Assembly: GCF_000265525.1 (NCBI RefSeq)
Contig: NC_018015.1
Location: 186,001 to 250,000, forward strand
Source: Thermococcus cleftensis
GTDB lineage: Archaea; Methanobacteriota_B; Thermococci; Thermococcales; Thermococcaceae
Length of the DNA stretch: 64,000 bases
Reading direction: 5' to 3'
How positions within the stretch are numbered: position 1 is the first letter of the stretch; each line of letters starts with the position of its first letter. The translations under genes and the position numbers were made by a program. The notes under the pieces were generated by a model, which saw only the letters and a program-made list of their open reading frames with translations, did no database searches and was not told the origin of the DNA. This document shows, in pieces, positions 37,300 through 40,843 of this stretch.

Positions 37300-37337
37300 T
37301 TATTAAATTCGCCGTCCAGCTCTGAACGGTGATGCAC
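37300..37337 (+). promoter_or_regulatory. argF promoter and leader
   Basis: TTATTAAATT (37300-37309) is a good TATA box ending 28 bp before the argF ATG, so the mRNA leader is only a few nucleotides if present; GGTGAT (37328-37333) lies 4 nt before the ATG. The 234 bp between 37104 and 37337 otherwise holds the DUF996 promoter and nothing else I can assign. Confidence 0.5.
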
Positions 37338-38285
37338 ATGGTGGTTAGCCTCGCCGGAAGGGACGTTCTCTGCCTTCAGGACTTCACGAGGGAGGAGATT
37401 GAGACCATTCTCAAGACGGCCGAGATGATGAAGATTTGGAACAAAATCGGCAAGCCGCACCGTGTTCTTGAGGGAAAAACCCTCGCCATGATCTTCCAGA
37501 AGCCCTCAACCAGGACGAGGATATCCTTCGAGGTCGGCATATACCAGCTCGGAGGCTACGGTCTCTACCTCAACGCCAACGACCTTCAGCTCAGGCGCGG
37601 TGAGACGATAGCAGATACCGCCCGCGTCCTCAGCAGGTACGTGGACGGAATAATGGCGAGAGTTTTTGACCACAAGGACGTTGAGGACCTCGCCAAGTAC
37701 GCGAGCGTCCCGGTCATCAACGGCCTCTCGGACTTCTCCCACCCGTGCCAGGCTTTAGCGGATTATCAGACCATACTCGAGAAGAAGGGCAGGATTCAGG
37801 GGCTTAAGATAGTCTACGTTGGAGATGGAAACAACGTCGCCCACTCCCTCATGATAGCCGGAACCAAGCTTGGAGCGAACGTCGTCGTTGCCACGCCCGA
37901 GGGCTACGAGCCGGACAAGCGCGTCATCAAGTGGGCCGAGCAGAACGCGGCCGAGAGCGGCGGAAGCTTCGAGCTCCTGCACGACCCGGTCAAGGCCGTC
38001 AAAGATGCAGACGTCATCTACACCGACGTCTGGGCCTCGATGGGACAGGAGGCCGAGGCCGAGGAGAGGAGGAAGATATTCCAGCCGTTCCAGGTGAACA
38101 GGGAGCTCGTCAAGCACGCGAAGCCTGACTACATCTTCATGCACTGCCTCCCGGCCCACCGCGGCGAGGAGGTCACCGATGACGTCGTCGACTCACCGAA
38201 CAGCGTCGTCTTCGACGAGGCCGAGAACCGCTTGCACGCTCAGAAAGCTGTTATGGCCCTCGTCATGGGTGGGATAAAGGTTTGA
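37338..38285 (+). CDS. argF: Ornithine carbamoyltransferase
   Basis: A 315-aa enzyme that joins ornithine and carbamoyl phosphate to citrulline. Motifs are complete: the carbamoyl-phosphate loop STRTRISFE (about residues 54-62), FSHPCQALADYQT, YVGDGNNVAHS, and the ornithine-binding MHCLPAHRGEEV. The start MVVSLAGRDVLCLQD is the usual Thermococcales one. It is a single gene; other arginine genes are not in the window. It can serve arginine synthesis or citrulline/arginine breakdown, and sequence alone does not decide. Confidence 0.95.
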   Translation: MVVSLAGRDVLCLQDFTREEIETILKTAEMMKIWNKIGKPHRVLEGKTLAMIFQKPSTRTRISFEVGIYQLGGYGLYLNANDLQLRRGETIADTARVLSRYVDGIMARVFDHKDVEDLAKYASVPVINGLSDFSHPCQALADYQTILEKKGRIQGLKIVYVGDGNNVAHSLMIAGTKLGANVVVATPEGYEPDKRVIKWAEQNAAESGGSFELLHDPVKAVKDADVIYTDVWASMGQEAEAEERRKIFQPFQVNRELVKHAKPDYIFMHCLPAHRGEEVTDDVVDSPNSVVFDEAENRLHAQKAVMALVMGGIKV

Positions 38286-38373: not shown

Positions 38374-39723
38374 ATGATCCGTAAATTCGTGGACAGGAAA
38401 GGGGAACTTGAGGCACTCGAAAAGGCGTATCAAAAGGGTGTGAATCTGTTCATCGTCTACGGGAGGAGGCGGGTTGGCAAGACGGCACTCCTCAGAAAGT
38501 TTCTTGAGGACAAATGGGGCATCTACTTCCTATGCTCACAGAGGGGCTATGAGAAGGACGTTGAGAGGTTTTCTGTAGAGGTCAGCAAACTGTTCAATCT
38601 GCCCCTAAAGTTCAAAGATTTTGGGGAAGCCTTTGAATTTCTGGTGAAGCAAGGAAAGCTCGTGGTGGTAATCGACGAGTTTCCCTACCTCATTGAAGCA
38701 TACAAGCCAATAGTCTCTGTGTTTCAGCGCATAGTGGACTTAACGCTTGAGAATTCCGAGATTATGCTCGTTCTTTCAGGTTCAAGCGTTGGAATGATGG
38801 AACGAGAGGTTTTGAGTTACAAGGCCCCCCTGTATGGGAGGGCAGGGGGGATAATGAAGGTAAAGCCGTTCCGCTTTTTCGACATGGTGGAGTGGTACGG
38901 GGGAGACTTTGAAAAACTCGTTCGCATCTACGGTGTCACATGGGGTGTTCCGAGGTACATGGAGCTGATACGGGAGGGAAGCGATGAGGAGATAATCCAG
39001 AACTTCTTCGAACCAACGGCGTTCCTCTTCAACGAAGGGAGGCTTCTTCTGATGGAGGAGCTGAGAAGCCCAACGACCTACGGCCAGATAATAGAAGCGA
39101 TAGCCCTAGGGAAGACGCGATTAAGTGAGATAGCGAGCTATGTTATGATGGAGCCGAAGGACCTGCCGGCTTACCTGCGGGTTCTGTCCGACCTCGGCAT
39201 CGTGAAGAGGGAGACACCCGTGACCAAGAAAACCGCCAAGAGGGGAATCTACGTCATTGAAGACGAGTACTTCAGGTTCTACTACCGCTTCGTCAGCCCC
39301 CACTACGAGGAGATAGAGGCATTGAACCCGGAGCCGGCGATAGAGGACTTCCGCAGGAATTTCAACGCGTACCTCGGGAAAACCTTCGAGAAAGTGGCAA
39401 GAGAGTTCATAATTCGGCTGATTAAAGGGCAGGAGATCCCCACTTATACCAGATTCGGCCGCTGGTGGCACAAGGGTGAGGAGATTGACCTCGTCGCCCT
39501 GAACGAGCGTGAGAAAAGGGTTCTGTTCGTGGAGGTCAAGTGGAAAGACCTGAGCGAGAGGAAAGCGCGGGGGATTCTCAAAGACCTGAAGAGAAAGAGT
39601 AAGCTCGTCGGTCTCGATGATTGGGAGAAAAGCTACGGTCTTGTGGTGAAGGACGTTGAGGAGAAGGCAGAGTTGAGAGCGGAGGGCTGGCAGGTTTGGG
39701 ATTTGGAGGACTTCAAAACGTGA
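38374..39723 (+). CDS. Archaeal STAND-like ATPase with DUF234 nuclease-like domain
   Basis: A 449-aa protein of the archaeal ATPase family: Walker A NLFIVYGRRRVGKTALLRKFL (about residues 23-43), Walker B LVVVIDEFPYL, a winged-helix part, and C-terminal DUF234 with a PD-(D/E)xK-like core (KGEEIDLVALN then RVLFVEVKWK). These genes are numerous and mobile in archaea; the cell role is unknown, perhaps defence or plasmid-related. TTAAATA lies about 25 bp before the ATG with no ribosome binding site, suggesting a leaderless mRNA. The gene looks more A/T-rich than its neighbours. Confidence 0.85.
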   Translation: MIRKFVDRKGELEALEKAYQKGVNLFIVYGRRRVGKTALLRKFLEDKWGIYFLCSQRGYEKDVERFSVEVSKLFNLPLKFKDFGEAFEFLVKQGKLVVVIDEFPYLIEAYKPIVSVFQRIVDLTLENSEIMLVLSGSSVGMMEREVLSYKAPLYGRAGGIMKVKPFRFFDMVEWYGGDFEKLVRIYGVTWGVPRYMELIREGSDEEIIQNFFEPTAFLFNEGRLLLMEELRSPTTYGQIIEAIALGKTRLSEIASYVMMEPKDLPAYLRVLSDLGIVKRETPVTKKTAKRGIYVIEDEYFRFYYRFVSPHYEEIEALNPEPAIEDFRRNFNAYLGKTFEKVAREFIIRLIKGQEIPTYTRFGRWWHKGEEIDLVALNEREKRVLFVEVKWKDLSERKARGILKDLKRKSKLVGLDDWEKSYGLVVKDVEEKAELRAEGWQVWDLEDFKT

Positions 39724-39791: not shown

Positions 39792-39875
39792 TGTGAAAGC
39801 CGGTTTTCATAAATGGTGCAATCTATGAAAGTGCACTTTCATAAAATGGCCGTTTTGTGAAAATTGGCTTTCACA
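39792..39875. promoter_or_regulatory. Three operator-like palindromes at exact 32-bp period
   Basis: Three copies of T(G/A)TGAAA-N6-TTTCA(T/C)A occur at 39792-39811, 39824-39843 and 39856-39875. The middle copy is a perfect 20-bp palindrome (TATGAAAGTGCACTTTCATA). Starts are 32 bp apart, about three helical turns, so all sites face the same side of DNA. They lie just before a TATA-like TATTTTAAA (39883-39891) of the methyltransferase gene and just after the ATPase gene. Likely cooperative regulator sites; an iteron array is the alternative. Confidence 0.65.
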
Positions 39876-39913
39876 AAACGAAGTATTTTAAACCCCTCTC
39901 CCTACTCCCCATC

Positions 39914-40843
39914 ATGCTTGAAAGGTTGTTTTCCCTCGGCTACTCAAAGACCTTCGCGGAGCGCTATTACGAGCTCTGGGGCGAGAGAGCCTTAGCGATA
40001 GCGGAGGCGATGGAGAGGCCCCTGCCAAGGTGTTTCCGCGTGAACACGCTCCGCATCGAGGTTCCAAGGCTCACCAAGCTCCTCAATAAGAAGGGCTTCC
40101 AGTTCAGGCGCGTCCCCTGGGCCAGGGAAGGTTTCTGTCTCACGCGCGAGCCGTTCTCGATAACCTCGACCCCCGAATACCTGAGCGGACTGCTCTACAT
40201 TCAGGAGGCGAGCTCGATGTATCCGCCCGTCGCCCTTGAACCCGGACCCGGTGAAACCGTCGCGGACATGGCCGCCGCCCCAGGTGGGAAGACGAGCCAC
40301 ATGGCCCAGCTGATGGAGAACAGGGGCATAATCTACGCCTTCGACGTCGGCGAGGAGAGGCTCAAAGAGACGCGCCTGAACCTCTCCCGCCTCGGCGTCA
40401 CCAACGCCGTGCTCTTCCACAAATCCTCGCTCCACATAGATGAACTCGGCGTCGAATTCGATAAAATTCTTCTCGATGCCCCCTGCACCGGCTCCGGGAC
40501 GATACACAAGAACCCCGAGCGAAAGGCAAACAGGACGATGGACGACGTCAAGTTCTGCCAGGGACTGCAGATGAAGCTCATCGAGAAGGCCCTCGAAGTC
40601 CTGAAAAGGGGAGGGGTTCTCGTCTACTCCACGTGCTCCCTCGAGCCGGAGGAGAACGAGTTCGTAATCCAGTGGGTTCTTGATAACTTCGACGTTGAGC
40701 TCCTGCCCCTCCGCCACGGCGAGCCGGCTTTAACGAAGCCCTTCGGCGTTGAGCTGAGTGAAGAAATCAAAAAGGCGAGGCGCTTCTACCCGGACAGACA
40801 CGGCACGAGCGGCTTCTTCGTGGCGAAGATTAAAAAGCTCTAA
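39914..40843 (+). CDS. RNA m5C methyltransferase, NOL1/NOP2/Sun family
   Basis: A 309-aa SAM-dependent enzyme that methylates cytosine C5 in rRNA or tRNA. SAM motif: VADMAAAPGGKTSHMAQL (about residues 113-130), and both catalytic cysteines are present: LLDAPCTGSGTIHKNPE and VYSTCSLEPEENEF. The N-terminal part is the short RNA-binding helical region. ATG 39914 lies ~23 bp after TATTTTAAA, giving a leaderless or near-leaderless mRNA; an in-frame GTG at 39857 lies in palindrome 3 and is not believed. The substrate RNA is not identifiable by sequence here. Confidence 0.92.
   Translation: MLERLFSLGYSKTFAERYYELWGERALAIAEAMERPLPRCFRVNTLRIEVPRLTKLLNKKGFQFRRVPWAREGFCLTREPFSITSTPEYLSGLLYIQEASSMYPPVALEPGPGETVADMAAAPGGKTSHMAQLMENRGIIYAFDVGEERLKETRLNLSRLGVTNAVLFHKSSLHIDELGVEFDKILLDAPCTGSGTIHKNPERKANRTMDDVKFCQGLQMKLIEKALEVLKRGGVLVYSTCSLEPEENEFVIQWVLDNFDVELLPLRHGEPALTKPFGVELSEEIKKARRFYPDRHGTSGFFVAKIKKL

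Follow-up and report, generated by a model that had tools for sequence, protein, structure and literature searches.

An orphan array of three palindromes in Thermococcus cleftensis belongs to a class of probable palindrome-pair operators at the promoters of mobile AAA_14–DUF4143 ATPase genes

The three regularly spaced palindromes that lie in front of an RNA methyltransferase gene in Thermococcus cleftensis are an orphan member of a class of palindrome-pair operators, and the usual owner of such arrays is a mobile gene, referred to here as c5, which encodes an ATPase of about 439 residues with AAA_14 (PF13173) and DUF4143 (PF13635) domains, rather than the neighboring DUF234 ATPase gene. We consider it probable (about 0.7) that the array is the multi-site operator of c5, that c5 itself cooperatively represses its own gene there, and that this design is shared by most of the AAA_14–DUF4143 genes examined in the Thermococcaceae.

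In the window, i.e., the whole stretch of 64,000 nucleotides that was analyzed, the motif TRTGAAA-N6-TTTCAYA occurs three times with zero mismatches, at 39792–39811 (TGTGAAAGCCGGTTTTCATA), 39824–39843 (TATGAAAGTGCACTTTCATA), and 39856–39875 (TGTGAAAATTGGCTTTCACA), with a step of exactly 32 bp. The middle palindrome is a perfect 20-bp inverted repeat, and the first has an orthologous site in other genomes that lack c5. The three sites, their spacing, and the perfect middle copy were thereby confirmed as described in the initial annotation. The intervening 12-bp spacers are aatggtgcaatc (39812–39823), which is of the AAATGGTGCAATC type with a conserved length and a variable middle, and aaatggccgttt (39844–39855). 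When up to two mismatches were allowed, the motif count in the window consisted of the three array sites only (0.28 expected; a count of three was reached in 0 of 100 shuffles), and no further copy with 0 or 1 mismatch was found in the 1.95-Mb genome.

The array (39792–39875) lies, as annotated, between an ATPase gene and the promoter of the methyltransferase gene. The upstream border of the conserved locus is argF, encoding ornithine carbamoyltransferase (37329–38285, forward strand; PF00185/PF02729), which adjoins the methyltransferase gene also in genomes that have no array. The DUF234 ATPase gene (38374–39723, forward strand; ATPase_2 and DUF234, PF03008/PF01637; a match to PADLOC PDC-S27, E 1e-40) is inserted between argF and the array, with a gap of 69 bp from its stop at 39723 to the first palindrome. 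The third palindrome abuts the BRE and the TATA box (TTTTAAA, about 39886–39892, forward strand) of the methyltransferase gene, the BRE being just upstream of a TATA box that is aligned in all argF–methyltransferase loci. The downstream neighbor itself encodes an RsmB/F-type RNA methyltransferase (39914–40843, forward strand; PF01189, E 1e-57) with an ortholog in 89 of 94 genomes. The nearest relatives of the DUF234 ATPase (70–87% identity) were seen in G025, G011, G022, G020, G010, G013, and G024.

The array is conserved in the family. The two-site pattern in the 32-bp register, with at most one mismatch, was observed in 37 of 94 Thermococcaceae genomes, compared to 0 of 94 for the reversed control pattern, with essentially one array per carrying genome, and the interval between consecutive good sites was exactly 32 bp in 72 of 77 cases, which is far above what chance would give. 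The array thus survived the comparison with close relatives, in which loss of the sites or of their spacing had been named as a refutation. The half-sites TGAAA/TTTCA are nearly invariant, while the bases of the central N6 vary, as does the middle part of the 12-bp spacer. The four combinations of bases at positions 2 (A/G) and 19 (C/T) were seen 35, 28, 27, and 27 times, that is, in free combination, indicating that the constraint acts on each half-site as DNA and excluding RNA pairing as its object. The motif search across Thermococcales promoters that the initial annotation had proposed revealed no regulon: in each of the eight genomes checked, the strict motif was present at one locus, and the extra 1-mismatch sites, at most one per genome, were at chance level. 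Viral contigs gave five pattern matches, none of which had TRTGAAA-type full sites or c5.

The gene c5 was found by fetching the array loci and clustering the neighboring genes, and it directly follows the array in 15 loci. When the 94 genomes were searched for c5, four genera yielded full-length orthologs, 15 in all and each at least 74% identical, and the array lies on the c5 promoter in 15 of these 15 genomes, a one-to-one link. The order of elements in the c5 promoter is site, 12 bp, site, AATCTTATAAAC (TATA), site, C, and ATG; the TATA box lies within the 12-bp spacer between the final two palindromes, the second of which takes up the stretch from the TATA box to the ATG. Where c5 is present, its stop codon in most cases runs directly into the methyltransferase TATA. 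In the window genome, the same search did not detect c5, the nearest relative being a 35%-identical paralog. Because the array is present and the c5 gene is absent, the window holds an orphan copy. The proposed link of the array to the neighboring ATPase did not hold: that protein is of the DUF234 family, its gene is missing beside most arrays, and palindrome pairs, scored as described below, were found in only 1 of 17 DUF234 ATPase genes, which are likewise mobile. In L092, L114, and L173, where c5 is intact or broken, a stretch like ttaggcacctcctgcttaa occurs twice within about 170 bp upstream of the methyltransferase TATA.

The layout recurs with different palindromes in the c5 paralogs of the Thermococcaceae, where one copy precedes the TATA box and the other lies between it and the ATG, for example TTGGTAAT-N3-ATTACCAA twice, or TTGATA...TATCAA twice. 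Each gene was scored for the best two copies of one inverted repeat, 26–40 bp apart, in the region from −130 to +20; the threshold was chosen after the first 31 genes, and 40 genes fetched later were scored with it unchanged. A palindrome pair was found at the start of 72 of 101 Thermococcaceae AAA_14–DUF4143 genes, compared to 7 of 293 controls (P about 2e-46), which were other genes in the same loci and of whose positives two were the array itself. Scores above the threshold were obtained for 75 of the 101, from which L257, L259, and L278 were discounted for TATA-like sequence in the scored sites. Without the c5 family, the pair was still present in 57 of 86 genes (P about 1e-39). The spacing was 32–35 bp in 72 of 72 pairs, although 26–40 bp was permitted. 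A few subfamilies had few or no pairs (fam2, 3 of 15; fam9, 0 of 2; fam14, 0 of 1).

The mean operator similarity was 10.5 between genomes for sites of one protein family and 4.8 within a genome for sites of different families (P 8e-10), a comparison in which 4.8 equals the value for unrelated genomes and the pairs are non-independent. As judged from the sequences, operator specificity tracks the protein family and not the host. Since different families in one host have different palindromes, a single host regulator would be unable to read all of them, and each ATPase could read its own. That most of the archaeal family genes checked carry their own version of the palindrome suggests self-regulation.

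The design extends beyond the Thermococcaceae. A scan of the collection by pattern only revealed TGAAA-N6-TTTCA pairs next to AAA_14-type or c5-like genes in a micrarchaeon, a Thermoplasmata MAG, a euryarchaeon, a WOR-3 MAG, and a Sphingobacteriaceae MAG. Among ten plasmid-borne homologs, chosen on protein similarity alone, the pair scores of L290, L292, L294, L295, L297, L298, and L299 were beaten by 0–2 of 100 shuffles, with a spacing of 32–33 bp in the two archaeal homologs and 39–40 bp in the bacterial ones; the second copy in L295 is partly palindromic. For homologs from other bacterial genomes, a clear pair was found in 6 of 23, all at 32–33 bp, compared to 1 of 27 controls. The palindrome-pair design therefore occurs in bacteria, where it is far from universal at the sensitivity used. 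The other bacterial matches of the scan were read as unrelated, the recurrent Bacteroidales pairs lying beside a ParA-like gene and others beside RpiR-like or HTH genes.

In the structure model of c5, for which the mean pLDDT is 86, an AAA+ core is followed by a predicted winged helix at about residues 248–302 (helices 248–261, 268–275, and 279–291, then strands 295–302) and then by a nuclease-like end. Against the PDB, the model is closest to Orc1/Cdc6 on origin DNA, with RuvB and STAND ATPases such as NLR resistosomes next; the whole-chain similarity is weak (TM about 0.3), and a search of the PDB by the c5 sequence gave no relative. Residues 215–299 gave weak but concordant profile hits to the HTH parts of Csa3, LrpA1, and CasR. 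The modeled AAA+ core and winged helix would be like those of the Orc1/Cdc6 initiators, unlike which c5 has a nuclease-like end and its sites lie on promoters, not origins. In addition, c5 matches the PADLOC PDC-S01 models (E 7e-33) with its AAA ATPase and PD-(D/E)XK-type end (PF13173 and PF13635), as do four other subfamily members (E 6e-37 to 8e-109). PDC-S01 is a candidate defense system, reported as the fourth most common across prokaryotes, and its ATPase and PD-(D/E)XK domains are those shared by c5; for most PDCs, validation is pending (PMC12988326). By this match, c5 is a PDC-S01-type candidate defense ATPase with a putative antiviral role. The open-access literature on defense and DUF4143 yielded no account of promoter palindromes or regulation of PDC-S01.

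Four features point to c5 as the protein that would bind the array: its association with the array, the pattern of specificity, the constant spacing, and the fold. In the proposed mechanism, c5 dimers would use the winged helix behind the ATPase core to bind cooperatively on one face of the DNA, at sites three turns apart. Bound c5 would shut its own promoter by blocking TBP/TFB and the polymerase, and the repression would be relieved once c5 is titrated or triggered. The initial reading of the palindromes as cooperative regulator sites stands insofar as a multi-site operator is the best reading, and the cooperativity itself we infer.

An AAA+ ATPase with a nuclease-like end would be unusual as a multi-site autoregulator, for which the archaeal precedent is the small Lrp proteins. 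Ss-LrpB of Sulfolobus solfataricus binds its own control region as three cooperating dimers, at three palindromic sites that follow each other at regular intervals (PMC4046817), and archaeal Lrp proteins have sites two or three helical turns apart (PMC2995911). The array shares with the Ss-LrpB operator the several regularly spaced palindromes, located in the c5 loci likewise at the control region of the gene itself. The two differ in that Ss-LrpB is a small Lrp protein with 15-bp sites, whereas the array has 20-bp sites at 32 bp, the TATA box inside the array in c5 loci, and an AAA+ ATPase with a nuclease-like end. The array thus resembles Lrp-type operators, as regularly spaced palindromes over a promoter, by layout only, and no Lrp-family gene was found in the part of the annotated array neighbors that was searched (argF, methyltransferase, and ATPases). 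The FL11 half-site is likewise TGAAA/TTTCA, which serves as a lead only. FL11 and the other feast/famine (Lrp-like) regulators of Pyrococcus show multi-site assembly in archaeal promoters, to which the array is similar, and for FL11 the control of about 200 units is predicted (PMC2995911). Unlike FL11, the array motif occurs at one locus per genome and has six bases between the half-sites.

A broader proposal, which we regard as tentative and on balance doubtful, is that PDC-S01-type ATPases combine repressor and effector in one chain, each subfamily keeping its own promoter shut through a private palindrome pair with a step of three DNA turns; engagement of the protein elsewhere, e.g., on invading DNA, would free the promoter, and orphan arrays in c5-less genomes would be kept as operators or decoys for the mobile gene. 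If the ATPases do read their own pairs, the DNA target of a subfamily could be read from its promoter, allowing an in vitro assay for proteins without a known substrate. It would also provide a concrete hypothesis for the silencing and induction of such genes, and the palindromes could be used to classify subfamilies and to locate orphan loci, at which the gene was lost or never arrived.

In the array-less Thermococcus species and in genus g14, argF and the methyltransferase gene are often adjacent with a short gap, indicating that the array and c5 are additions to the locus. The array and c5 travel together: the segment from about 70 bp upstream of the array to 11 bp past c5 is 94.7% identical between G004 and G069, which belongs to another genus, and the methyltransferases of these two hosts are far more diverged than this segment. 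Fragments of the methyltransferase gene behind c5 in G069 indicate that the array–c5 segment there came from a Thermococcus locus.

About 22 array genomes, the window genome included, lack c5 (a count in which the loci were inspected except that of G116, the only genus g14 genome with an array, and in which the array of G091 lies at a contig end), and their conserved half-sites are left unexplained by autoregulation through c5 alone. In these arrays, the last site is 10–12 bp upstream of the methyltransferase TATA, with a BRE-like sequence as in array-less genomes. Half-site differences amounted to 0.6% in the derived set and 8% in the early-branching set, compared to 30–52% for the central six bases, 39–48% for the middle of the spacer, and 40–46% for 4-fold degenerate sites, an estimate of constraint in which detection itself favors conserved sites. 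So many genomes with at least two intact sites would not be expected from long neutral drift. Either something still binds the orphan sites, or c5 turnover is fast enough to maintain selection. If the window array is still bound, it could affect the methyltransferase promoter that it abuts.

For the orphan state, the explanation to which we give slightly less than even odds is that c5 is gained and lost within species, so that a genome without c5 would be one that lost it recently or recombined, and its array a passive remnant of the c5 operator. The three-site arrays of G086, which has c5, and G073, which lacks it, are identical; G033 and G073 differ by a clean presence or absence of the last spacer, the last site, and c5; G021 retains a broken c5 (a pseudogene); and the arrays in G002, G078, and G095 are partly decayed. 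On the other hand, only one c5 pseudogene was seen beside a Thermococcus methyltransferase, and in a tree of the methyltransferase and argF the early-branching array genomes are all without c5, which is scattered among the remainder, and yet their sites are constrained. This explanation is compatible with the array as a c5 operator and bears on the orphan state alone. The same early-branching, c5-less arrays would also fit a host operator of the methyltransferase, read by a Thermococcus regulator (e.g., an Lrp-like protein), whose array was borrowed by a c5 inserted later; that c5-less arrays are common, with constrained half-sites, a maintained distance to the methyltransferase TATA, and the old BRE, agrees with it. 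We nevertheless judge it improbable, because beyond genus g1 every inspected array of the family has c5 and never the methyltransferase promoter, many Thermococcus with the methyltransferase are array-less, the genome has no further site for the motif, and paralogous ATPases in the same hosts share the layout with other palindromes that one host regulator could not read.

Two further readings concern elements other than an operator. The variety of unrelated genes in the argF–methyltransferase interval (c5, the DUF234 ATPase gene, c13, and a DUF4932 gene) could reflect an iteron or recombination (att-like) site that draws mobile genes into it. We consider this very unlikely: no recombinase is linked, insertions occur on either side and also in array-less loci, and the palindromes are neither split nor duplicated around the inserted genes. 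The iteron array suggested in the initial annotation finds no support as a plasmid-type element, since the array site is the chromosomal interval and no replication initiator is among the Pfam-scanned neighbors. Still further down in probability, close to negligible, are RNA hairpins that would terminate or attenuate the transcript on either side of the array, as the location of the palindromes between genes might suggest. The lack of compensatory pairing at positions 2 and 19, which combine freely, and the lack of an Rfam family at the gathering threshold for the array argue against an RNA element; there is also no T-run, and the sites overlap the TATA box and the start in c5 loci. The c5 operator remains the preferred reading of the array.

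Several minor observations were made at the array loci and in the scan. A DUF4932 gene lies between the array and the methyltransferase gene in L111, L112, and L120, and in L111 the start of the methyltransferase gene persists as a short copy (ATGCTCGAAAAG...) behind the array, which suggests insertion with partial duplication. Contigs end 0–300 bp from the array in several assemblies (L118, L121, L110, and L115), perhaps because strains differ at the site. In the Bacteroidales (L211, L218, L223, L228, L232, L236, L240, L245, and L248), TTGAAA-N5/6-TTTCAA pairs are flanked by a ParA-like gene and by a small conserved one whose product begins METRK, and are possibly a mobile-element operator or a partition site. 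In the proteobacterial L212, L225, L227, and L243, TGAAA-N6-TTTCA pairs are directly 5' of RpiR-type regulator-like genes. In Photobacterium galatheae, two separate TGAAACTATGATTTCA pairs (L210:5518 and L210:5755) precede a pair of genes, a small XRE-like one and a HipA-like one, arranged much as in a toxin-antitoxin system.
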